Part shown: positions 23,721-37,774 of the stretch, piece after piece
Layout: each line of letters opens with the position of its first letter
Position numbering within the stretch: the stretch's first letter is position 1
Notes under the pieces: generated by a model
What the model was told of the DNA's origin: nothing
Seen by the model: the letters and a program-made list of their open reading frames with translations, nothing else
The model's database searches: none
Assembly: GCA_009786535.1 (NCBI GenBank)
Contig: WQRX01000006.1
Span: 1 to 64,000 of the forward strand
Length of the DNA: 64,000 nucleotides
Direction: 5' to 3'
Origin: Defluviitaleaceae bacterium
GTDB lineage: Bacteria > Bacillota > Clostridia > Lachnospirales > WQUN01
Translations under genes and position numbers: made by a program

Positions 23721-26700
23721 CTATTCGCGCACCTGTAAGAGTTCCAGCGGGGCTTTTGCGCTAATTACATACGCCCCTGCAATTGTTCCTATGATTGCCC
23801 CCAGCAAATACACACCCGCCAGCCCAAGGGGAATAATGCCCGGCACAACACCGCCGGCGGGCAGCGCTGATAAACCAATAACTACGCCCAGCGTACATAC
23901 CAGCAATTGCTCAATACATAACACAAAACGCGTTGCCGACTTTGCTTTGCCGAGTATGCGCATAATAGCGGCATTTTTGGCATTTTGTAATAACGTGAGC
24001 AGTGATAAACCCAGCCCCAGCAAAAATGCCGCCGCAACAGCAATGGGGAATAACACGCGCAATAACGTCAAATTCTGTTCCAAGGGGATAATTACCGTGT
24101 CAATAACCGCATCCTCTAAAATAAGCACAAGCGGAACATTACCGATACGCCCTGCGGCATTTGCCTGCAACATGAGGCGCGTTTCTTCGCGCAGTTGTGC
24201 CAAATCACGATTGCGGGCAGGGTCTATGGTAAACCGGGCAGAAAGCAATAGCGGGTAGTACGTAAACGTACTGCCAAAACCCGCAAAAGGAAATTCCCCC
24301 GATGCCATGTACACCAAATCCTCATACGGGATAACCACCACAGCGTTGTCCTCGCCAAATTGGTTTACCCCGCGGCGCAGCCCCCCATAAAAAATACCAA
24401 TGAGCTGCGAGCCTGCGCCCATAATTGCCAGAGGTTCGTCCGTTGGGTCGGGGATAAGTGCTTCGTCCAGCATACCTGCGCGCAGAAGTACGGGCATAGC
24501 TCCACCCGCTGCGTCAAAATCTGCCATGGTAAAATCATGCAGGAAGCGGATATAAATATCGTCACAAAATACGCCTAATTGCTCATCAATCGGGGTTTTT
24601 GTATTTCTGGTGATAAATCCCCCGATATTGCTTACACCAAAGAAGGTAGTAGCGCCGTCTGTGGTCAAATTTTCTAAATAGGCGTCTTTAATAAAGCCCG
24701 TTGCTTCCATTGTATCCCATACTTGCGGGGTAATTACGGCATTCCAACCCGTTTGGGCGACGACATCCATTTCGGGGTCTTCAATAATTTGCCCGTGGAT
24801 AATGGTTGTGTTCCATAAATATTCTACCTCGGCTTCGGTTGAAAGAATCGTGTCGTAGCGCCAGCCCAGCGCAAAAACAAACAACGCTGCAAGCAATAGC
24901 GAAGGTATTGTTTTTTGCGGCGTACGCAGGATGTGGCGCAAATTGTATTTAAATACCGCACGGCGGGCGGCGCGGGAAGTGGTTTCCCTTATCGCCTCGG
25001 GCATTTGGAAGTTACCCAGCACAAAATTGTTGGGCACTATGCCCGAATCCACATACGCGGCGCGCGTTTGTACCGTACCTTGTAATTGCTCCAGCACCGG
25101 ACGGCGCACTTGCTGCAACGCACCCAACCCAACACCTGCAAGCAATACCAGCATTATTGCAATACATAGCACAGCAAGCCAATACCCCGCAGGCAAGTGT
25201 TCCCCCGCGTCCAAGCCATAGCCCCCCGCGGCAGCGAGGGTTGCTTGCGCTTGCTCCAGCGTAAAAAGCCATGCGATAGTGCTGCCCATCACGGCAAACG
25301 GCATCCAAATATAAAACACAGGGCGTAATAAGTCCTTTATTGAGTTAACCGCAGGCAAGCCCAACGCCCGCGATATTGCAAGGGATTTTCGCCATTGCCG
25401 TAAGTACAAAACAATCGCCAGCGCTACCGCAAGCACCGCAACAAAACTAAAAACCAGCAGATTTACCGTTACCGAGGTACGTATCGGGTCAATTGCAGCG
25501 GCAAACTCGGTAAAACCGCTGGGTAAAATACGCGCGGTAAAGCCAAGGTCGGCAAGTGCGGCGCGCGTTTCCCGTAAAAATGCTTCCTCTTGACGGGGCG
25601 AAGTGAGCGTAAAGCTGTACATGCCTGTAAGCAGCGGCGCATTGTCCCAGCCAAACCCATCGGGGATAAGACTTGCGGGGATAAAAATTTCCGCTCCTGT
25701 AAAATTGTTGCTTGCAGCGGGGGCAAACCAATAAATACCCACCACTTCTACTTCTATTTCATGGGTAGGGAAGTCACGCCAATTTGTATGCGCGCCGTCC
25801 ATCAAACCCCACCAGCCGTTGGCGCGGCTGTCCCACCAGTTTTCTACCCCGCGTGACCATGGGCTGTAGGTTGGGGTGTCTATCCAATTTGGGCGGGGGT
25901 TATCGCGTAGTGTAATTGTAAGCGTATCGCCTACGTAAATATCTCGCCGTATGGCAAGAGGAGCCGGAATTACGGCTACGGCGCGGTTTTCTTCATAGTC
26001 TTCATACGTAAGCCAGCGCCCCACCGGGAAGCGCGGGCTATCTAATAAACGCGCGGTTTGCGGGTCATTCATACGGGGAAGCGCAGTCATATCCCGCGTT
26101 CCCGTTACCAGCACAGAAGATGTATTCTGCGCGAGCAATGCTAAAGGCTCGTATAAATTGGCAAGCATTGCGGTGTATGCATCAGTTTCGCTATAGCGCG
26201 CAAAATACACCAGTTCCGCCACTGGGCTGCGCCGTGCTTCGTTTATAGCTAAACCAAAGCGCCTAACATCCCCAAGCATATGCCAGTCAAAACTAACGCC
26301 GCAGTCACCTATAAGGGGCTGTATTTGCCATATCGCACCTGAAAAATAAGCGTTATGTATCACATTGGGGGTTGCACGGAATAATGCTCGCTCCCCCGCG
26401 CGCAGGTCACCAAAGGGACTCCATTCCCCGCGGTTAAATTTTGCTGATTCGGCTTCCGTAATGGGTATATGCATTAAATGATTTGCAAGCACAGTAGATG
26501 TTTGCCCAAGGTGGTTAGTAAATACTTGGTCTTCATACCGTAAGGATTGACGGTCGCCTATATGTAATTCGTCTACACGCATTGTTATGACAAGCGTTGG
26601 CGTAGGGGCAGAAGCCGCAGGCAGCATACGCGGTAAAAAAAGCATATACCCCATAAAATAATGCTCCATTATGGGAACACTAACATTATGCAAAACAGGG

Positions 26701-27041
26701 TTAAAATGGTTTTGGTGAAACGGCCTAACCGTATTGGTAACGCCGTGCATTACCCCCTGCGTAAACACCCGCGGGTCAGAAATTTCAACCCTTCGGTTAC
26801 GGGCAATTAATTCGGCAGCTTCGGTAACATCGTGGTTATAGGTGATATTGTCAAAACGCGTTGGGGTAAGTATACCAATGGCACGGTAAAAGCCTTCGGC
26901 ACTGTCTATAGCTCCGCGCACTACAGTAAATTCCACCGCGCGGGCGGTGAAGCTAAACGCCGCCGCGCCAATAATTAACGCTAATATAAATGCACGTACA
27001 GGTTGGCGTAATACCGAGCGCAGAAACACGTTACCGGTCAT
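23721..27041 (-). CDS. giant FtsX-like ABC permease
   Basis: The 1106-residue membrane protein has an N-terminal helix (about 16-34), a very large extracytoplasmic domain (about 40-525), three helices (about 530-650), a cytoplasmic link, another helix (about 705-730), a second extracytoplasmic domain (about 735-980) and three C-terminal helices (to about 1100). This is the duplicated FtsX layout used by MacB-like mechanotransmission transporters and by bacitracin-type sensors/exporters. With its ATPase it could extract or shuttle envelope substrates rather than move them through a channel. It overlaps the RCC1 lipoprotein gene by 11 bp, so that lipoprotein is a likely partner. The first ectodomain is longer than usual. 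Confidence 0.85.
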   Translation of the reverse strand: MTGNVFLRSVLRQPVRAFILALIIGAAAFSFTARAVEFTVVRGAIDSAEGFYRAIGILTPTRFDNITYNHDVTEAAELIARNRRVEISDPRVFTQGVMHGVTNTVRPFHQNHFNPVLHNVSVPIMEHYFMGYMLFLPRMLPAASAPTPTLVITMRVDELHIGDRQSLRYEDQVFTNHLGQTSTVLANHLMHIPITEAESAKFNRGEWSPFGDLRAGERALFRATPNVIHNAYFSGAIWQIQPLIGDCGVSFDWHMLGDVRRFGLAINEARRSPVAELVYFARYSETDAYTAMLANLYEPLALLAQNTSSVLVTGTRDMTALPRMNDPQTARLLDSPRFPVGRWLTYEDYEENRAVAVIPAPLAIRRDIYVGDTLTITLRDNPRPNWIDTPTYSPWSRGVENWWDSRANGWWGLMDGAHTNWRDFPTHEIEVEVVGIYWFAPAASNNFTGAEIFIPASLIPDGFGWDNAPLLTGMYSFTLTSPRQEEAFLRETRAALADLGFTARILPSGFTEFAAAIDPIRTSVTVNLLVFSFVAVLAVALAIVLYLRQWRKSLAISRALGLPAVNSIKDLLRPVFYIWMPFAVMGSTIAWLFTLEQAQATLAAAGGYGLDAGEHLPAGYWLAVLCIAIMLVLLAGVGLGALQQVRRPVLEQLQGTVQTRAAYVDSGIVPNNFVLGNFQMPEAIRETTSRAARRAVFKYNLRHILRTPQKTIPSLLLAALFVFALGWRYDTILSTEAEVEYLWNTTIIHGQIIEDPEMDVVAQTGWNAVITPQVWDTMEATGFIKDAYLENLTTDGATTFFGVSNIGGFITRNTKTPIDEQLGVFCDDIYIRFLHDFTMADFDAAGGAMPVLLRAGMLDEALIPDPTDEPLAIMGAGSQLIGIFYGGLRRGVNQFGEDNAVVVIPYEDLVYMASGEFPFAGFGSTFTYYPLLLSARFTIDPARNRDLAQLREETRLMLQANAAGRIGNVPLVLILEDAVIDTVIIPLEQNLTLLRVLFPIAVAAAFLLGLGLSLLTLLQNAKNAAIMRILGKAKSATRFVLCIEQLLVCTLGVVIGLSALPAGGVVPGIIPLGLAGVYLLGAIIGTIAGAYVISAKAPLELLQVRE

Positions 27042-28440
27042 TACGCATCACTCCCGTTTTTATTTGCACAGGCTCGCTGTGTACAATTAAATAGCTATTG
27101 CCCAGTTGTCCGTAAAAATTTTGTCCCCAACCCCATAACACAGCACAATTTGTCACCGCTAAGGTATGAAATGCACTTGCGGCAACGGCGTTTACATCTT
27201 CCATTACGATTATAGGGTAGGTATGGCGCGTAAGGCTATTTTCACCAATTTGAGATTGGCTGTTACAACCCCAGCCCCACAGCGTACCGTTTGCATCTAA
27301 TGCCATGGAATGTACGTCCCCTGCAGCAATGGCTACGATATTTTCCACTACAAGCGCAGGTGTTTCGCGGCGGGCATACATACCCGTACCCAACTGCCCG
27401 TTACCGTTAAAACCCCATGAGTACAAACGTCCGTCATGTGTAAGCGCTAGGGTATGCTCCCTGCCAACGGCAATTTGCACGACCCCGTCCATAATCCGTA
27501 TGCCCCCTATGTCCATGCCATCCCGTAGGGGCGGACCGTCCCAATCTACAGGCAAACCACGGGCGGCACTGTTGCCGTGCCCCCACACTTCGTTGTTGTA
27601 AGTTAGGGTAATAGTATGCCAATGTTGCCCAAATTGTCCTGTGCCGCGAGCCAGAAAAGAAGCAACGCCGATAAAATTTTCTTCAAACGTTAATAATTCT
27701 GCATCATTGGCTGAAAGCGAAATTGCATAGTCTTGCATATCTTCGGTTCGCCACACAGCATAGGCAAAAAATTCTTCTGTTGACCAGTTCGTCCGCTCAC
27801 GTAATTCCACATACATTGCATTATCGCCTACCCGTTGGGGCGTTAAACGATTTGCATAAGCTCCAATAGGTAAATTTGGCGGTTCGCTGCCGTCGGCATT
27901 GGTCACAGTTAGCAGGTCGAAACGGTAACGGCGGCTATTTACATCAAAAAAGAATATCGTTCCACCCGAGCCTGAAATTTCCTCACGTGGAATAAAGGGC
28001 TCGCCTTCACGGTCAAATAATAAAAGATGTTCATCCAACACACCATTTAAAATAATACGCGCCAGCGATATCCCCTCTAACCTAGGAAATGCCCCCCACA
28101 CCCATACTGTGCCATCTTCGGTTATTGCAGCGGATGTTTGACGCCCTGTATGAATGGCACGGCGAAGTACAGGTAAATTTAAAGGCTCGGCAGGCCATGG
28201 CATTTCGGTTGCGTCGGGATCGTCACCATCACATGCACAATTTTCACAGGGCGCACTTACCGCTGCTGCTTCCTGGGGGGATAAAAGTACAGGAGCGTTG
28301 GGGCGTATACGCTCTGTTGCAGGCATTTCTTCTGCATAAACTTCATTATTATCGCTGCCTTCGTTATAGGCATTATCATACCCGCATGAGGAAAATCCAA
28401 TAATAAATAACACCGCAAAAAAAGGTAAAAATTTTTTCAT
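27031..28440 (-). CDS. RCC1-repeat lipoprotein
   Basis: The 469-residue protein has a signal peptide with lipobox FSSC (Cys about 19) and an acidic linker. The remainder carries RCC1-type blades: TSAAITEDGTVWVWG near residue 96, and three clean C-terminal units with the ALxxDGxLYxWGxNxxGQLG pattern (about 330-450); the middle is more diverged (VWGHGNSAARG). At least five blades are recognisable. It should sit outside the membrane and bind protein or ligand through the propeller. It lies between the S41-like gene (3 bp) and the FtsX permease (overlap) and is the second RCC1 protein in this run, the other being fused within OppC. Confidence 0.82.
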   Translation of the reverse strand: MKKFLPFFAVLFIIGFSSCGYDNAYNEGSDNNEVYAEEMPATERIRPNAPVLLSPQEAAAVSAPCENCACDGDDPDATEMPWPAEPLNLPVLRRAIHTGRQTSAAITEDGTVWVWGAFPRLEGISLARIILNGVLDEHLLLFDREGEPFIPREEISGSGGTIFFFDVNSRRYRFDLLTVTNADGSEPPNLPIGAYANRLTPQRVGDNAMYVELRERTNWSTEEFFAYAVWRTEDMQDYAISLSANDAELLTFEENFIGVASFLARGTGQFGQHWHTITLTYNNEVWGHGNSAARGLPVDWDGPPLRDGMDIGGIRIMDGVVQIAVGREHTLALTHDGRLYSWGFNGNGQLGTGMYARRETPALVVENIVAIAAGDVHSMALDANGTLWGWGCNSQSQIGENSLTRHTYPIIVMEDVNAVAASAFHTLAVTNCAVLWGWGQNFYGQLGNSYLIVHSEPVQIKTGVMRNDR

Positions 28441-28443
28441 GTT

Positions 28444-29766
28444 TTACACTCCTTCTAAAAACCGCCACACATCCATTCTGTCTTCTATGCCGATTGGCAA
28501 ACGATAATCATATACCCGACCCGTTTCTTCTAATGACCGACCGTACGCATCGGTAAAATATAGCGGGTTAAACCGCAATACAATCGTCGCCGCCGCAAGG
28601 CGCACAAAAGTAGTATCCCATCCTTCGCTTTGCGTATCTTCTTGGTATACGATAGTAAAGCCCGCTTCACGCGCCATTTGCAAATACATAAAATTAGGAC
28701 CGGAGAAGCTTCCGCTGTCAACAACCAGCCATACACGCCCGTCAAATGAAATATCTCCTGCGGGCTGTATGCGCACAGGCACAGGAAAGCCCGAAACAAT
28801 GCCCTCGGGCAACGCATAGGTAAAATTGCCTGTTAGTGTATCTGCATCTACCCGCTCACCCAGATTATGCCACTCGCGGTAGGCATAACTAACACGCCGC
28901 GCCATATAGCCCCCCATATGGAAGGCATAAAAATCTTTCTCCATCGGCACATGTAAAAACGGAGATAAAATATACGGAACAAAATAACCTGCAAAATTAT
29001 TCGCATTACCGCGTACATCTATAATAAGATGCTCATAATTATCTAACGATTCAAAATAACCCAGCAATAACTGCCCCTGCGTTGCAGGGTCAAACTGCCA
29101 AAAAGGAAGGCGGGTTACATCCTCATATCCCTTGGCAAAAAAGTTGTGAATGCGCATATACGCAACGCCCTGCGTAAGGGTTGCAAATTCTACATTATCC
29201 TCGCGCACAGGTATTACATGCCGTTCGTCTGTAAACCGCCAATCATAGTGATTAAAAAAATAAGGGTGGTGAATCCAATCAATCAAGCCCGCTTGCATTG
29301 CCACACGTACATTGCCAAGTCCAAAAAGGTATGACAAATAATAATCGTTAATAAAATCACGGATAAAGACTTGCGCAGGGTCATCGTGTACAATTTCCAT
29401 TAGCTCGCCGAATACATCTAAGGCAAACTCCATATAATTTAAGCCGCTTCTGCGAGTTGCTGCTTCAAAAAATGGGTAATTTTCATATAACTCATGCACC
29501 ATTACCGCAAATGCAGACATACGCGTTTGCTCACGCCGCGCCCGTAACATTTCTACCTCCCACCGCCGCCGCGCTGCAATCACATTAGGGTGAAAGGGGT
29601 CTAGCACCACCACATTGGGGCTACGGTATCCCAGCCAAAGGGGAAAGGCAAATAAAAAAACGACAAGCAAAACCGCACCCGTCCAATATGCGTATTTTAA
29701 CTGTCGTCCTTTATTTGAAAGAAAATGTGTTACATTACTTCGCAAGCGCTCCCATTGCATTCGCAT
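28444..29766 (-). CDS. membrane-anchored S41-protease-like protein, probably inactive
   Basis: The 440-residue protein has one N-terminal anchor (about 24-46) and an extracytoplasmic region. The second half resembles the S41 (tail-specific) protease core: LIIDVRGNANNF (about 243) corresponds to the family's DLRxNxGG strand, and VWLVVDSGSFSGPNF (about 346-360) to the strand and nucleophile loop with a Ser. The following TQSEGWDTTF aligns where Ctp proteases have FGKGTVQ, so the catalytic Lys is missing. No PDZ domain is seen. It may bind peptides instead of cutting them, fitting the neighbouring peptide importer. A different catalytic dyad or triad cannot be excluded. Confidence 0.65.
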   Translation of the reverse strand: MRMQWERLRSNVTHFLSNKGRQLKYAYWTGAVLLVVFLFAFPLWLGYRSPNVVVLDPFHPNVIAARRRWEVEMLRARREQTRMSAFAVMVHELYENYPFFEAATRRSGLNYMEFALDVFGELMEIVHDDPAQVFIRDFINDYYLSYLFGLGNVRVAMQAGLIDWIHHPYFFNHYDWRFTDERHVIPVREDNVEFATLTQGVAYMRIHNFFAKGYEDVTRLPFWQFDPATQGQLLLGYFESLDNYEHLIIDVRGNANNFAGYFVPYILSPFLHVPMEKDFYAFHMGGYMARRVSYAYREWHNLGERVDADTLTGNFTYALPEGIVSGFPVPVRIQPAGDISFDGRVWLVVDSGSFSGPNFMYLQMAREAGFTIVYQEDTQSEGWDTTFVRLAAATIVLRFNPLYFTDAYGRSLEETGRVYDYRLPIGIEDRMDVWRFLEGV

Positions 29767-30023: not shown

Positions 30024-31595
30024 CTATGCCCCCTTAGTGTCGTATTTATGACACGCCACAAAGTGCCCCGGCACTTGCTCGCGCCATTCGGGTACAACAG
30101 AAAGGCAAATTTCCATACAGTCGGGGCAGCGGGTATTAAACTTGCACCCGGGCGGTGGGTTAATGGGGCTGGGGATATCCCCCTCCAGTATTTGCATTTC
30201 CTTTTCGCGGTCAAGGTCTGTGGTAGGTATGGCGGAAAGTAATGCCGTAGTATACGGGTGCAAGGGGTTGGCAAACAATTCTTCCGACGTACACAACTCA
30301 ACAATTACGCCAAGATACATAACGGCAATGCGGTCGCTAATATATTTCACCACCGAAAGGTCGTGGGAAATAAACATATACGTTAGATTATCCTTGTCCT
30401 TTAAATCCTTAAGCAAATTAATAATCTGTGATTGTATACTTACGTCCAGTGCCGAAACGGCCTCGTCACACACCACAAATTTAGGCGCGGTACTAAGCGC
30501 ACGCGCTATACCGATACGCTGGCGTTGCCCGCCCGAAAATTGGTGCGGATAGCGGTGTATCATATACGGGGCAAGACCACAGTCTTCCATAATACGCATG
30601 GTATAGTCCTGCATCCGCTCATTATTTTTTACAAATTTTTTATGCGTTATCGGCCCTTCGGAAATTATTTGCCCCACCGTTAAACGCGGATTTAAGGACG
30701 AGTACGGGTCTTGGAAAATGAGCTGCAAATCCTTGCGCAGGAAACGCATCTCGTTATACGTTAAACGGGCAAGGTCTATGCCGCTGTCGCGCATACCCTC
30801 ATACTTTTGAAAATCTTCGTTATCTTTATATCTTGCGCGAATGGTGTCTATTTCTGCTTGGGTTTTTTCTTTTTCGGCTTGTAATCTTTTCATTTCCTCG
30901 CCACGCATTTGCTTTACTTTATCAAGCAACGCATTATATTTGCTTTCGCTTGCGCCAAACAGGTTATTATCAATTTTGTATTTTACTTCGTCGGCTTTTA
31001 CTTCGGTACGCATAATTTTTTGGTTTAACATAAACAATGCGCGCGCCGCGTAGAAGTGATGCTGCAGTGCCACAGCAATGGCGGGGTAATCCTTTTTATC
31101 CGCCACGTAAAAGCCGCCGATAAGGCGCACAACGGCAAGGTATTCGCTGTTTGCTTTTTTCAACGCCTCGTCGCGTTCGTTACGTTTGGCAAAATAGCGG
31201 GCTTGTATTTTTTCTTTATCATCGGCTGCATCGTATTCGGCATGCACGGCTTGGTATTCCTTTTCCTGCCGTTCGGCTTCAACCATCAATGATTTGGTTT
31301 CCTCACATCTGCGTTCCAAACGGTTATAAATATCCAACACGTAGCGGGGCACCATATCATCAATATTTTGCCCGTAGTAAATGGTTTCGCCGTCTGTTTG
31401 ATTGTATAATTGAATAAGCACGCGCCCAAGGGTAGACTTACCGCAGCCCGATTCGCCTACAATACCCAGCGTTTCCCCTTCATATATATCCAGCGTAACC
31501 CCATCGTTGGCGCGCACAAACATATTGCGCCTTCCGCGCACGGGGAAGTATTGCTTTAAGTTACGTATGCTAATCAGCGGTTTTTTATCGCTCAT
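30024..31595 (-). CDS. oppF: oligopeptide ABC transporter ATPase OppF with a large helical insertion
   Basis: The 523-residue protein is far longer than a usual OppF (about 320-330). Walker A GESGCGKST is at 47-55 but the Q-loop LIFQDPYSSLNPR begins near 292. The extra residues, about 80-276, are charged and Glu/Lys/Ala-rich with heptad-like stretches, so helical hairpin or coiled coil is likely. After it the protein is normal: signature FSGGQRQRIGIARAL (about 355), Walker B FVVCDEAVSALD, and the C-terminal Cys-bearing oligopeptide motif PGCKFNTRCPDCMEIC. The insertion sits at the helical-domain side facing the permease. It overlaps oppD by 4 bp. Confidence 0.88.
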   Translation of the reverse strand: MSDKKPLISIRNLKQYFPVRGRRNMFVRANDGVTLDIYEGETLGIVGESGCGKSTLGRVLIQLYNQTDGETIYYGQNIDDMVPRYVLDIYNRLERRCEETKSLMVEAERQEKEYQAVHAEYDAADDKEKIQARYFAKRNERDEALKKANSEYLAVVRLIGGFYVADKKDYPAIAVALQHHFYAARALFMLNQKIMRTEVKADEVKYKIDNNLFGASESKYNALLDKVKQMRGEEMKRLQAEKEKTQAEIDTIRARYKDNEDFQKYEGMRDSGIDLARLTYNEMRFLRKDLQLIFQDPYSSLNPRLTVGQIISEGPITHKKFVKNNERMQDYTMRIMEDCGLAPYMIHRYPHQFSGGQRQRIGIARALSTAPKFVVCDEAVSALDVSIQSQIINLLKDLKDKDNLTYMFISHDLSVVKYISDRIAVMYLGVIVELCTSEELFANPLHPYTTALLSAIPTTDLDREKEMQILEGDIPSPINPPPGCKFNTRCPDCMEICLSVVPEWREQVPGHFVACHKYDTKGA

Positions 31596-32635
31596 TTCTG
31601 CCGTACCCCCTTTTCAGGATAAAAACAGCGTACAAGTTGCTCCTCAGCCACTTTTACAAGCTCAGGCTCTTTTGTTTTGCATTGGTCGGTGGCGTATTTA
31701 CAGCGGGGTGCAAATTTACAGCCCACGGGTAAATCCAACGGATGCGGTACAGCACCTTGGATAACATCCAGCTTTGCGCCTACGGGCGTATCCAAACGGG
31801 GAATGCTCGTAAGCAACCCCTCCGTATACGGGTGCGAATAGGTAGATTCACCAAAAATCATACGCACGGGTGCCTGCTCTACCACCTGCCCGCAGTACAT
31901 AACGGCTACAAAGTCTGCCATTTCGTTAATTACGCCTAAGTCGTGGGTAATAAACATAATGGCCGTACCTTTTTCGCGCTTTAGCTCGTTCATTAATTTT
32001 AAAATTTGCGCTTGAATGGTTACGTCCAATGCCGTGGTTGGCTCGTCGGCGATAAGCAAGTCGGGCTTACACGCCAGCGCCATGGCTATCATTACACGTT
32101 GACGCATACCGCCGGAGAGCATAAACGGGTAACGCCTGCTCACCTGCTCGGGGTCGGGGATTTTTACATCGGCAAGCATTTTAACGGATTCCGCATAGGC
32201 TTGCTTCTTGCTCATACCTTGGTGTACTTGAAACGATTCACCAATTTGCCGCCGCACGGTAAAAATGGGGTTCAAACTCGTCATAGGCTCTTGAAAGATA
32301 ACGGATATTTCATTCCCGCGTATTCTTGCCAGTTCCTTTGTGCTTAGCTTGGTCATTTCTCGGTCTTTAAAAAGAATACTGCCGTCGGCTACCTTGCCGT
32401 TGCCGTCTAACAAGCCAAGTATGCTCATGGCAGAAACGGACTTACCGCTTCCGCTTTCGCCTACGATTCCCAGTGTCTTCCCTTGCTCTACGGTGTAGGA
32501 AACGCCGTTTACCGCCTTTACTACGCCGCGGCGGGTCGTAAAATAGGTATGCAGGTTATTTAATTCCAGCATGGGTTTGTCGTTTGTTTTTTCACGCGGG
32601 GTTTCGACAGGCGTTACTGTAATTTTTGCATCCAT
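31592..32635 (-). CDS. oppD: oligopeptide ABC transporter ATPase OppD
   Basis: A 347-residue ATPase of normal length with Walker A GESGSGKSV (about 57-65), Q-loop IFQEPMTSLNP, signature LSGGMRQRVMIAMAL, Walker B LLIADEPTTALD and the C-terminal Cys motif PVGCKFAPRCKYATDQC that is typical of peptide-family ATPases and binds an iron-sulfur cluster in some members. It pairs with OppF under the OppB/OppC permease. Unlike OppF it has no insertion. Confidence 0.93.
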   Translation of the reverse strand: MDAKITVTPVETPREKTNDKPMLELNNLHTYFTTRRGVVKAVNGVSYTVEQGKTLGIVGESGSGKSVSAMSILGLLDGNGKVADGSILFKDREMTKLSTKELARIRGNEISVIFQEPMTSLNPIFTVRRQIGESFQVHQGMSKKQAYAESVKMLADVKIPDPEQVSRRYPFMLSGGMRQRVMIAMALACKPDLLIADEPTTALDVTIQAQILKLMNELKREKGTAIMFITHDLGVINEMADFVAVMYCGQVVEQAPVRMIFGESTYSHPYTEGLLTSIPRLDTPVGAKLDVIQGAVPHPLDLPVGCKFAPRCKYATDQCKTKEPELVKVAEEQLVRCFYPEKGVRQK

Positions 32636-32641
32636 TTGCCG

Positions 32642-34477
32642 TTACCTCCCCTGTGCGCGCGGGTCGGTTGCTTCGCGCAGACCGTCCCCTACTAGGTTTA
32701 TACTAATTGCCACCGTTACCAATGCCACGGCGGGGAATATCCAGCGCCACCACATGTCACGCAATACTACAGAGCTTTGTGCGCCAGAAAGCATATTGCC
32801 CCACGTAGGTACCGGCTCGCGTACGCCAAACCCTATGAAGGAAAGCGTCGTTTCCGTAAGCATGGAACCTGCCAGCGCCAGTGTAAGCAATACAATAGCG
32901 GCAGAAATAACATTCGGTAAAATATGCCTAAAGATGAGTTTAAACTGCCGTACCCCAAGCGCGCGGGCGGCAAGTACGTATTCCGACTCCCGTGCCTGCA
33001 GGATTTGCGCGCGCACAAGACGCATAAGCGGTGGCCAACTCAACGCACCCAGCACAAACATGAGGAACATCATACCCTGTACTTCGTCAAATAAATGCCT
33101 AAAACGGAACTGTATAATTAACGCAATGGGCAGGAAGGGTAACGAGCCCACCACTTCTGCCAAGCGCATAAGAAACATATCTAACTTACCGCCGTAAAAG
33201 CCCGACATCCCACCAAAAAACAAGCCGATTGAGCCCTGTACAAAGACCGCAACCATACCAATCAACAGCGAATAACGCCCTGCGTGCCACATACGGGTAA
33301 ATATACAACGACCCCAATGGTCTGTACCAAATATGAAGCCGCTTAACCCCCATGTGGTAATTGTACCGTCGGCGCGCAGTACATAGTTATGGTCGCCTGC
33401 AACAAATATCCCTACGCCGTCGGTGATGGCGGGGGCATTTGTGCGTCCGTTTCTATCGCTTCCCCATGAAACGACAGAACCATCCGTAAGCAATGCGGTA
33501 AAATGCTCACGCCCTGCACCCACACCGATTATACGTCCTTGAATACCCGCAGGGATATCAAACAATTCCCTTGCCAGAGAGTCGCCCCATATAGCTACGG
33601 TTCCGTCATTTAATAACGCAATACCGTTATGGTCGGTCATTGCAAAATCTACTACGCGACCTTGTACTTCGTCGGGTATATCGCGTATACCGCGCGGTGT
33701 GCGCATTAATACATATAAATTTCCTTCTTCCGTTAAAACGCCGAAAGTAAATATATTCGATTCGATTTGGATAGGATTTTCTGTACGGGGTACGCGACCT
33801 ACGGCGGCGGTGTCGCGCCTGTCCAGTTCTACCCCGCCCCATGAATGCAGGTTACCGTCTTTATCAATGGCTACCGATGTCCGCATTCCCGCGCTAACAT
33901 GTCGTATATTGCCTTGAATGGCAGGGGGAACGTCTAACATAACAAATGCAGGGTTTGGGTTACCCCACGCATACACATACCCGCACTCGGTTACCGCTAA
34001 CGCATGATAATACCCCGCAGAAACCTGTACAATATTTCTGTTTGTTTGGGGCGGGCGCATCAACGGCTCGGCAATTCCGCTTACAACGCCCCACGCATGT
34101 ATATCCCCTTGATACGTAACGGCAATACCATACCCCGCCCCTGCGTCCATGGTACGTATGTTACCCCGTATATCACGGGGGATGCGCATCATTGCCCGCC
34201 CCGGGCGCACATTGGCCTGCCCTGCATCCGTATCTGTTAATTCCATTGGAAAAAAGAAGGGAATAACAATGCTGGCAAGCAATACACTAAAGAACCCCGT
34301 TAAACCAATAATGGTTAACTTGCGCCGAAAGAATTCTCTAACAATGGTTCTAAACGGGCTTTGTACCTGCTCCTCTTCGGCCAGCGACATTTTGCCGCCT
34401 AACCGTTCGCCAAACATCATGCTCATAAAATTGCCAAACCACGAGCGGGTTTGTGTACTTTTTTTATTATCCATCAT
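32642..34477 (-). CDS. oppC: oligopeptide ABC permease OppC with an inserted RCC1 beta-propeller
   Basis: The 611-residue protein is about twice normal OppC. Residues 1-50 are cytoplasmic, TM1 is 54-77, then residues about 103-378 form seven RCC1-type units (typical core: AVTxxGxxxAWG, e.g. around 118-130, 159-172, 201-213, 249-258, 286-298, 328-339, 365-377). The last blade leads straight into the conserved OppC element GTDHWGRCIFTRM (384-396; usual form GTDxxGRDxxSR) and TM2. The transport domain after it is intact, with the EAA loop AARALGVRQFKLIFRHILPN. By topology the propeller lies outside the membrane at the mouth of the importer. It could contact OppA, the RCC1 lipoprotein or cell-wall peptides. 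There is no frameshift; the fusion is in frame and continuous. Confidence 0.92.
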   Translation of the reverse strand: MMDNKKSTQTRSWFGNFMSMMFGERLGGKMSLAEEEQVQSPFRTIVREFFRRKLTIIGLTGFFSVLLASIVIPFFFPMELTDTDAGQANVRPGRAMMRIPRDIRGNIRTMDAGAGYGIAVTYQGDIHAWGVVSGIAEPLMRPPQTNRNIVQVSAGYYHALAVTECGYVYAWGNPNPAFVMLDVPPAIQGNIRHVSAGMRTSVAIDKDGNLHSWGGVELDRRDTAAVGRVPRTENPIQIESNIFTFGVLTEEGNLYVLMRTPRGIRDIPDEVQGRVVDFAMTDHNGIALLNDGTVAIWGDSLARELFDIPAGIQGRIIGVGAGREHFTALLTDGSVVSWGSDRNGRTNAPAITDGVGIFVAGDHNYVLRADGTITTWGLSGFIFGTDHWGRCIFTRMWHAGRYSLLIGMVAVFVQGSIGLFFGGMSGFYGGKLDMFLMRLAEVVGSLPFLPIALIIQFRFRHLFDEVQGMMFLMFVLGALSWPPLMRLVRAQILQARESEYVLAARALGVRQFKLIFRHILPNVISAAIVLLTLALAGSMLTETTLSFIGFGVREPVPTWGNMLSGAQSSVVLRDMWWRWIFPAVALVTVAISINLVGDGLREATDPRAQGR

Positions 34478-34492: not shown

Positions 34493-35482
34493 TTAGGTAT
34501 ACCGAATGCGCGGGTCTATAAACACATATAAAATATCCAACACCAAAATGCCCACATACGCGATAAGTGCGTAAAACACGTTCATGGTCATCAGCACCGG
34601 TATATCGCGCAGGTTTAAAGCATTTATCATAATTTGTCCCATGCCCTGCCATTGGAAGGTAAGCTCAATGGCTAATGAACCGCTAAAGATGCCAATAAAC
34701 CAGCCTGCCATTACTGTAACTATGGGAATAAGCGCATTACGGAAGGCGTGGGAATAAATTACGGTTTTTTCCGCAAGCCCTTTGGCGCGTGCGGTGCGTA
34801 CACAGTCCATATTTAACGCCTCTATCATAGACGAGCGAATGTAACGTATCATGCCCGCCATCGACATTAAAGCCAACGAGAATAACGGCAACGCCATATA
34901 ACGCAGCCTATCTAAATACCACGCAAGCGTACCCGTGGGGGGGGGCATCATAGACGCCATGCCAAACATGGGAAATATGTCCAGCCAGATAGAAAAAACG
35001 ACAATCATAATCAAACCAAACAAGAAGCCGGGGACACTCATACCAATCATTGAAGTCACCAGTGCGGTATTATCAAATAATTTACCCCGCTTTATGGCAC
35101 TAACCACCCCCACAGGTATAGTAATAGCAAACACGATGGTCATGTTCATAATACTCATTACAATCGTATTTGCCATAGGGGCGCGCACGTGGTCAATTAC
35201 AGGGGAGCGCGTTTCCATAGATGTACCAAAATTACCTTGGAAAACGGCACGCAGCCAGAAAAAATATTGAATTACATGGGGCTGGTCCAATCCCATGGTT
35301 TCTATTATTTCTGCCCTGGCGGCAGCCAGCTGCTCGGGCTGCATGGTAATTTGCAGCTCCAAAGGCAAAAACATTTCAATTGGGTCACCGGGCATTGTGC
35401 GGAATAACATAAAGATGATAAACGAAATCATAAACAAAACCAGAACAATGTACAAAATACGTCTAAAAATAAAATTAGCCAC
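34493..35482 (-). CDS. oppB: oligopeptide ABC transporter permease OppB
   Basis: A 329-residue permease with the canonical N-terminus FIFRRILYIVLVLFMISF, six predicted helices, and the EAA loop RTARAKGLAEKTVIYSHAFRNALIP (about 222-246) that contacts the ATPases. It is standard in length, in contrast to OppC and OppF. It lies 15 bp upstream of oppC. Confidence 0.93.
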   Translation of the reverse strand: MANFIFRRILYIVLVLFMISFIIFMLFRTMPGDPIEMFLPLELQITMQPEQLAAARAEIIETMGLDQPHVIQYFFWLRAVFQGNFGTSMETRSPVIDHVRAPMANTIVMSIMNMTIVFAITIPVGVVSAIKRGKLFDNTALVTSMIGMSVPGFLFGLIMIVVFSIWLDIFPMFGMASMMPPPTGTLAWYLDRLRYMALPLFSLALMSMAGMIRYIRSSMIEALNMDCVRTARAKGLAEKTVIYSHAFRNALIPIVTVMAGWFIGIFSGSLAIELTFQWQGMGQIMINALNLRDIPVLMTMNVFYALIAYVGILVLDILYVFIDPRIRYT

Positions 35483-35572: not shown

Positions 35573-37774
35573 TTACTGAGCGTGGCGCATATCGTAGGTT
35601 CTAATTACTGCAAAGTCAAACGCCCACAATGGTCCGCCGTAATAGTTGCCTAACCACACGGGGAAGAAGTCATGCACCAATGCCATACGTACGGGCAAGG
35701 TAAATACCTCGTAGGTTAAGTGTTCCATATAGTCGATAAATGCTTCGATAAATGCATCGTGACCTTCGGGAGTGCCAATATCAATTACGCGGAAGCGTTC
35801 TGCCAATTCACGGGTTGTGGGGCAGTCCACTTGACCCCAGTTTTGGTGGGGGATTGTATCAAGGCCCATGTTCCACCAAGGCATCCATGGGTTACCCATG
35901 CCAATACCCAAATAGAACATTTCATAACGGGGGGTTTCGCGGTAGCCGCCGGACAAACGGGGTGACCAGCGGTCGTCGCGGTCGTCTACAAAGCGCCCGC
36001 CCGCATAAGCAAGGTTGGGGGCCATTTGCATAACCAGCGCATCACGACCCGGGATAGTTACATTAGCCGTTACCATGTTAATGATAAGGGGCATAAGCAC
36101 ACGTTCACCGGTATATACCCAGTTGCGGTGGCTTAGTTCGCCTGCTTCATCTTGCACCATGCTTACAATGTTACCATGTTCATCTGTGCCTAAATGTCTT
36201 TCATCTACCCATTTATGGCGGATATTGTTGGGGTTATCTACAGCGTTGCCTACATAGGGTGTACCGTCTGCGTTATAGTTCCAGCCGCCTGCTTCCAACA
36301 GCTGGATAGCGCGTGCAAGGTTAAGGTCATAGATGTGAACACGGTCGTACAGGTCGCGGTCGGCAGCTTCTTGGTACCACCACCATGCGGGCGCCCATGG
36401 ACCATGTGCAACGGTGGAGTAACCGCGCCCAATGGTTGTATTAATTTCGTGACGGTCAATCATAAATGCAATGGCTTGACGCACTTCACGGAATTGGGTT
36501 GGACCTGTATCGGTGTGGAACTGAATCATGCGCTGACCAAACTGCTCGAAGTTTACGAAGCTGTGCGAACCCGCATTAACCAGCATTTCGAAAGCTTGGT
36601 CTAAACGACCGCCATCGCTTTCGGCAGTTAAGATATGCACTTCGCCCGCTGCCAATGCGTCAATCATCAGCTCGGTGGGTACATGCCGCCAGATAATACG
36701 CTCGATACGGGGGCGATAGCCGTCCCATGTACCGGGGAAGTGGGGGTTAGCCACTACGGAAATTGTGCCGTTACCTACGTCCACGCTATCAAACATATAT
36801 GCGCCTGCGGTAACGGTGGGGCGGAAGCGTACACCGTCACGTACGGTTTCACCAACGGGTTCACCATCGGCATTGTACATGGGTAAGCCGGTTGTGGGGT
36901 CATTGAATTGAACAAAGGTTTCCGCACCGCCTTGTATCGTAGCTTCAAATGCTTCGATAGTAAGGGGGATGCCACCGGGACCGGTAAAGAATACGCCGTC
37001 GCCGTTGTCATGTATCTCTACACCATACATATGAGTGGGGACAGCGCCAAAGCCCATGTGTACGGCAGCTTCCCATACTTGTGGCATGTCTTCCGCCCTT
37101 GCGGTTACAGAGAACTGAGAATCGTTGTACAAACGAACGCCTGCCAAGGTTGGCACTTCGCCGTTTATGAACGGAGCGCGACCATACAGCCACATATGGG
37201 TTGCTGCGCTGGGCACTACGTTTGCCCAGTAGGGGCTAACCCACAGGGCTGCATCCGCTGCAAAGTGCGATGCGTTAATGGGTGAACCGTCCGAGAAACG
37301 AAGGTCGGTGTACACGGTAAAGGTATAGGTACGGCTGCCGTCCGCGTTGTCACGGATTTCCGGCCATGCACCGTCTACCATTACGATAGGGTTGGGGAAA
37401 AACAAGTTTTCCGAGTTACGCGCTATTGTGCCGAGGTGACCTAATGTGCCGCGCATTTGTGCATTTGTGATGGGGTTCGTCCAACCGCCCAAGATGTTCG
37501 CGTCGGGGCGCGCACCTGCTATTTGCACAATGTACGTGCCGGGCACGGCAGACATGGCACCTGCACGAGCCAGAATCGCCTCGCGCGAGTCTTCGGGAAT
37601 GTCCGCAGGGGGCGGCAGGGGTTCGGGGGTTGGTACGGGCGTTACACCCGTTGCAGGTGTGGGCGCAGGCGTACCGTGGGGGGTTACGTTATCGCCCCCG
37701 TTGCCGCCTCCACAAGCTGCAAGGGTGAGCATAGCTGCAATTAGTACAGCTGCTACAAACAAAATCTTTTTCAT
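35573..37774 (-). CDS. oppA: oligopeptide-binding lipoprotein OppA
   Basis: The 733-residue extracytoplasmic protein has a lipobox LAAC (Cys about 21) and a Gly/Pro/Thr linker, followed by the family 5 solute-binding fold. Visible family elements are the YTFTVYTDLRFSDGSPINASHFA segment (about 168-190), FREVRQAIAFMIDRHEI (about 425-441) and a late binding region. It is longer than most OppA proteins (about 540). It captures peptides for OppBCDF. GGAGAGGAG precedes the ATG, and a promoter and terminator are upstream, so it heads the operon. Confidence 0.9.
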   Translation of the reverse strand: MKKILFVAAVLIAAMLTLAACGGGNGGDNVTPHGTPAPTPATGVTPVPTPEPLPPPADIPEDSREAILARAGAMSAVPGTYIVQIAGARPDANILGGWTNPITNAQMRGTLGHLGTIARNSENLFFPNPIVMVDGAWPEIRDNADGSRTYTFTVYTDLRFSDGSPINASHFAADAALWVSPYWANVVPSAATHMWLYGRAPFINGEVPTLAGVRLYNDSQFSVTARAEDMPQVWEAAVHMGFGAVPTHMYGVEIHDNGDGVFFTGPGGIPLTIEAFEATIQGGAETFVQFNDPTTGLPMYNADGEPVGETVRDGVRFRPTVTAGAYMFDSVDVGNGTISVVANPHFPGTWDGYRPRIERIIWRHVPTELMIDALAAGEVHILTAESDGGRLDQAFEMLVNAGSHSFVNFEQFGQRMIQFHTDTGPTQFREVRQAIAFMIDRHEINTTIGRGYSTVAHGPWAPAWWWYQEAADRDLYDRVHIYDLNLARAIQLLEAGGWNYNADGTPYVGNAVDNPNNIRHKWVDERHLGTDEHGNIVSMVQDEAGELSHRNWVYTGERVLMPLIINMVTANVTIPGRDALVMQMAPNLAYAGGRFVDDRDDRWSPRLSGGYRETPRYEMFYLGIGMGNPWMPWWNMGLDTIPHQNWGQVDCPTTRELAERFRVIDIGTPEGHDAFIEAFIDYMEHLTYEVFTLPVRMALVHDFFPVWLGNYYGGPLWAFDFAVIRTYDMRHAQ

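Follow-up and report, generated by a model that had tools for sequence, protein, structure and literature searches.

The window, i.e., the whole analyzed stretch of DNA with a length of 64,000 nucleotides, hosts an importer operon composed of five genes:

35573..37774, minus strand: oppA, long lipoprotein-type solute-binding protein of 733 aa, likely docking partner (SBP_bac_5; AppA-like fold)
34493..35482, minus strand: oppB, second permease subunit, 329 aa (Pfam; conserved operon)
32642..34477, minus strand: oppC, permease subunit with an inserted RCC1/BLIP-II-type propeller, 611 aa (Pfam, NCBIfam, predicted structure)
31592..32635, minus strand: oppD, ATPase, 347 aa (Pfam; operon)
30024..31595, minus strand: oppF, ATPase, 523 aa, with a helical-looking insert of ~185 aa before the Q-loop (Pfam; operon)

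The gene order oppA-oppB-oppC-oppD-oppF was retained in 108 loci, 96 of them with all five genes and the remaining ones mostly interrupted by contig ends. With an OppC permease fold including an OppC_N TM1, the five-gene set, and an OppA of the SBP_bac_5 type, the importer belongs to the Opp/Dpp family by every sequence feature examined, peptides being its presumed substrate. Nickel chelates are among the further ligands bound by proteins of the SBP_bac_5 type. The predicted model of the OppA in the window shows an ordinary solute-binding fold, with B. subtilis AppA as its nearest match (Z 24.9). Despite the length of this protein, no separate extra domain was identified in the predicted model, which contains low-confidence stretches around residues 608-652. 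Across the operons encoding an OppC with the propeller (RCC1-OppC), OppA has a median length of 639 aa, compared with ~507 residues in the DppA chains of E. coli. Downstream of the operon, three further genes are located on the minus strand, encoding an S41-peptidase-like protein (28444-29766, weak match), an RCC1 lipoprotein whose strong RCC1 repeats are concentrated in the C-terminal part (27031-28440), and an FtsX/MacB-like protein of 1106 aa (23721-27041); the first and the last of these are conserved at this position only within the genus.

The oppC gene represents one uninterrupted frame of 611 aa, in which Pfam recognizes OppC_N (residues 40-92), RCC1_2 repeats (E 3.9e-27), and BPD_transp_1 (residues 418-608). 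Opp4C is the top NCBIfam model (residues 381-607, E 4.3e-83), with a score under its curated cut-off. The insert of ~289 residues follows TM1 and precedes the conserved GTDxxGR element of OppC. In OppC proteins with the propeller, the TM1-TM2 loop comprises ~297 aa in comparison to ~20 aa (median 19.5) in plain OppC. The parts of the gene were assigned as follows:

34253..34321, minus strand: TM1 of OppC, residues 53-75 (AlphaFold2 helix 53-75; OppC_N 40-92)
33335..34201, minus strand: inserted seven-blade propeller, residues 93-381 (Pfam, AlphaFold2, Foldseek, VIA-align, loop length)
34160..34201, minus strand: strand-like N-terminal segment, residues 93-106, probable closing outer segment of blade 7 (spacing)
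34034..34159, minus strand: blade 1, residues 107-148 (AlphaFold2 strands 107-112, 116-121, 126-130)
33908..34033, minus strand: blade 2, residues 149-190 (AlphaFold2 strands 149-154, 159-163, 168-171)
33776..33907, minus strand: blade 3, residues 191-234 (AlphaFold2 strands 191-196, 200-205, 210-214)
33656..33775, minus strand: blade 4, residues 235-274, degenerate, without WG (AlphaFold2 strands 235-240, 245-249, 254-256)
33533..33655, minus strand: blade 5, residues 275-315 (AlphaFold2 strands 275-280, 284-289, 294-298)
33419..33532, minus strand: blade 6, residues 316-353, with the family-conserved loop GRxHF (AlphaFold2 strands 316-321, 325-330, 335-339)
33335..33418, minus strand: blade 7, residues 354-381, with a conserved NY loop (AlphaFold2 strands 354-360, 363-368, 373-377)
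33308..33352, minus strand: junction motif WGLxG[YF]xxG[TS]DxxGR linking blade 7 with the permease, residues 376-390 (69 orthologues)
32645..33334, minus strand: permease core TM2-TM6, residues 382-611 (BPD_transp_1; superposes together with TM1 on 8z21_B)

An earlier note on this DNA had described seven RCC1-type units within the oppC frame at 33344-34171. The units were recovered as Pfam repeats as well as seven three-stranded sets in the AlphaFold2 model; the location of the insert held, whereas its limits required a small extension to 33335-34201 (approximately residues 93-381). The start was moved upstream because GRAMMRIPRDIRG, preceding blade 1, matches the spacing of the outer segments that follow WG in the other blades. 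This stretch probably closes blade 7 as its outer segment.

AlphaFold2, run on an alignment of 69 orthologues, provided an OppC model with a mean pLDDT of 85.9 and a pTM of 0.80. Seven sets of three strands were found within residues 107-377, including blade 4, in which the WG signature is gone and the three predicted strands are retained. BLIP-II and E. coli OppC 8z21 were the top Foldseek matches of this model, the insert being aligned with BLIP-II over 274 columns (E 4.9e-17, target TM 0.84). In VIA-align, the propeller (model residues 94-369) superposed on 1jtd_B with Z 30.2 and an rmsd of 2.3 Å over 256 aligned residues, and the permease part (model residues 38-606 around the insert) on the OppC chain 8z21_B with Z 30.5 and 2.2 Å over 277 residues. 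The structure prediction of OppC is in line with the earlier reading: the segment forms blades, the strands together with the BLIP-II superposition describe a closed seven-blade propeller, and OppC_N, BPD_transp_1, and the match to E. coli OppC depict an intact permease on both flanks. The propeller is thus predicted to be complete, with the permease intact on either side. In DppBCDF, the TM1-TM2 regions lie in the periplasm, where DppA forms a cap over DppB and DppC (PMC12136057). Owing to this placement of the TM1-TM2 loop in solved OppC/DppC homologues, the propeller would be extracytoplasmic, beside the entrance of the translocation path, as had been deduced before from topology.

The same junction was found in >100 independent assemblies, including single-contig genomes, and misassembly is therefore ruled out. 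Each of the 69 aligned orthologues is recognized by the permease as well as the RCC1 models. RCC1-OppC is carried by all five sampled species of the genus (59-69% identity, one species twice), by 8 of 38 genomes of the family, by several other families of the order, and by about ten families of the class. On phylum level, it was detected in 9 out of 299 genomes drawn, and full-length orthologues occur in >15 further family bins. The two copies of the one congener lie on different contigs, the second having neither oppD nor oppF beside it within the 15 kb examined. Relatives from named genomes, 294 in total, were found with a six-sequence alignment as query, while a contig scan with the single protein returned none. 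The best 80 of these 294 are near full length and include the isolates Merdimmobilis hominis, Gemmiger formicilis, Coprococcus comes, Falcatimonas sp., Clostridium sp. KNHs205, Acetivibrio ethanolgignens, and Hungatella effluvii, along with Spirochaetales MAGs (Spirochaetota). Hence, the suggested search for permeases with RCC1 between TM1 and TM2 yielded many across the phylum and in Spirochaetota, and the one-off fusion implied by the earlier note gave way to an architecture that is widespread in gut Clostridia and present in some spirochaetes. None of the plasmid-borne relatives reached 80% query coverage; a hit on a Haladaptatus plasmid (78%) was a single alignment extending over a pair of neighboring permease genes, and an annotated RCC1 gene was absent. 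One further genome encodes an OppC of ~894 aa with extra RCC1 units, apparently a duplicated block of blades.

In a phylogenetic tree based on the permease core, proteins carrying RCC1 constitute one clade (support 100/99), and the label count on this tree is three changes. The two extra changes were traced to a contig-edge fragment (L061) and to plain OppCs of the genus studied here (g1) on a very long branch (3.1), so that multiple origins were rejected in favor of the simplest scenario, a single ancient insertion that was then inherited and in part transferred. The insert of OppF (~185 residues) shows a different pattern. It is located between Walker A and the Q-loop, and the length of OppF is bimodal among RCC1 operons (334-364 or about 470-640 aa); therefore, this insert varies independently of the propeller. 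Being present in only part of the RCC1 operons, it was discarded as a propeller-linked trait.

Analysis of the conserved residues revealed G377, L378, G380, G384, D386, G389, and R390 of the junction motif to be invariant in the 69 orthologues. Near-invariant loop residues are H158 (69/69), R175, and Q199 (68/69 each); R323 and H325 of blade 6 are kept in 67 and 66 orthologues, respectively, and Y365 of blade 7 in 67. The window protein has N175 and R199 in place of R175 and Q199, and the OppA of the same genome is divergent as well. Conservation is highest in the loops connecting the first to the second strand, with an entropy of 1.14 bits vs. 1.72 in the DG turns and 2.04 in the outer loops. 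The lowest values were obtained for blades 6, 7, 1, 2, and 3, the loops of which adjoin the attachment point, whereas blades 4 and 5 are variable.

Evolutionary distances of the propeller and of OppA were correlated after removal of OppB, the OppC core, and OppD (partial r 0.28, p 0.002), in comparison to a partial r of 0.29 for OppA-OppB and -0.01 for RCC1-OppD. Separated by face, co-divergence with OppA was 0.31 for the loop face vs. 0.10 for the opposite turns. The loop-face value was reached by 2.7% of random sets of 28 non-apical positions and by 7% of the sets matched for entropy, and the signal dropped to 0.13 with the closer relatives (L104-L183) alone, which characterizes the apparent face-specific co-divergence as weak. 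For the co-occurrence, membership in the OppA family was defined by E<=1e-45 and counted in the same 391 class-level genomes as RCC1-OppC. The OppA family was present in 15 and RCC1-OppC in 17 of these genomes, with both being present and adjacent in 14 (Fisher 6e-22), a value mostly reflecting operon inheritance. The sole genome with OppA and without RCC1-OppC is interrupted by a contig end. Out of the three RCC1-OppC genomes lacking an OppA match, two are affected by contig ends, and the third is the genome investigated here with its divergent OppA.

Based on the anatomy, the co-occurrence, and the weak co-divergence, we propose that the propeller most likely acts as an extracytoplasmic docking platform for OppA, a reading to which we attach about even odds. 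The face formed by the loops of strands 1-2 in blades 6-7-1-2-3 would grip the cognate OppA and thereby hold or orient it over the OppB/OppC gate, while a scoop loop of OppB would perform substrate release. BLIP-II is a protein-binding seven-bladed propeller with three-stranded blades (PMC6121496), the extra periplasmic region P2 of MalF (residues 91-271) contacts MalE (PMC3150292), and DppB has a short scoop, located between its TM1 and TM2, which extends into DppA (PMC12136057). The BLIP-II-type fold, the extracytoplasmic position, the MalF precedent, the adjacency of OppA, and the loop conservation are in favor of docking. In contrast, co-occurrence with OppA is also expected from plain operon inheritance, the elsewhere invariant R175 and Q199 are lost in the window protein, and most OppC proteins exist without such a domain. 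Among the three partners proposed earlier (OppA, wall peptides, and the RCC1 lipoprotein), OppA is nevertheless the one with the best support.

Alternatively, the propeller could be a primary receptor, capturing peptides, or proteins in a folded or partly digested state, on its face and passing peptides to OppA. In favor of this reading, Tyr, Gln, Asn, Arg, and His are abundant on the conserved loop face, RCC1/BLIP-II propellers show very high affinity for their protein partners (PMC6121496), and the presence of OppA makes a relay possible. However, a dedicated solute-binding protein is already part of the operon at every complete locus, and conservation across different lineages speaks for a partner that stays the same and against variable prey, rendering such a receptor unlikely. 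Slightly less probable is an anchor that ties the importer to an envelope component (peptidoglycan, a peptidase, or the RCC1 lipoprotein) near peptide sources. The extracytoplasmic position and the RCC1 lipoprotein and S41-like genes downstream in this genus would fit such a role, but among 88 RCC1-oppC loci an RCC1 lipoprotein is near only two and an S41-like gene near four, all of them of this genus. Docking of the RCC1 lipoprotein, as considered in the earlier note, is accordingly not supported, and this protein was rejected as a general partner. Furthermore, monoderm Clostridia and diderm Spirochaetota share the architecture, making a Gram-positive-wall-specific partner less likely.

We consider it just as improbable that the insert decorates a permissive loop and serves structural purposes only (stability, spacing, or gate shielding). 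Unrelated inserts of 112-288 aa at the OppC TM1-TM2 loop of other lineages indicate that the site tolerates insertion; yet, the seven units are kept over many families, including the loop positions 158, 175, and 199, and no clear loss is seen within the RCC1 clade, given the nature of L061 and of the g1 branch. The least probable variant combines this loop as a modular socket with the propeller as a second receptor relaying to OppA, i.e., a two-receptor importer. Ten OppCs carry inserts of the above-mentioned size in the same loop, and no Pfam match was obtained within the insert among those scanned. The site may be a general socket, a lead rather than a result.

No publication linking RCC1 to OppC, or to an ABC transporter permease for oligopeptides, was found in a literature search whose coverage excluded subscription papers and preprints, and of 36 papers on RCC1 and permeases, the 20 listed appeared irrelevant by title and abstract. 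Domain databases may list the propeller-OppC architecture already; it is common in sequence collections, its function apparently being undescribed. Peptide importers feed gut Clostridia and can admit signalling peptides as well as antibiotics. An extracellular propeller fused to the permease provides a defined model of the way in which the binding protein is held by a peptide importer, and an unrelated fold may thereby have solved the problem addressed by MalF P2. The presence of RCC1-OppC in culturable species such as M. hominis, C. comes, and H. effluvii makes it amenable to study.

In comparison to known systems, the importer shares its subunits, the permease fold, and the solute-binding fold of OppA with the Opp/Dpp importers of E. 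coli (OppBCDF 8z21, DppABCDF 8z1v-8z1z) and M. tuberculosis (OppABCD 8j5q-t). It differs from these by the propeller of ~290 residues, which is missing from their OppC/DppC, and by its longer OppA. The scoop of DppB shares the location of the propeller outside the membrane between TM1 and TM2 and is in contact with the binding protein (PMC12136057), but comprises ~30 residues of the B subunit and is not a folded domain. MalF P2 is another case of a type I importer in which one permease subunit carries an additional extracytoplasmic domain; it has a non-propeller fold within a different subunit family, and binding is shown for MalF, whereas the contact of the propeller with OppA is proposed. 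By analogy, the propeller would work like MalF P2, with no evidence of homology. The closest structural relative is BLIP-II (1jtd, 3qhy, 3qi0), having seven three-stranded blades in the same repeat register (Z 30.2, 22-23% identity). While BLIP-II is a free secreted beta-lactamase inhibitor, the propeller of the window is embedded in a transporter subunit.
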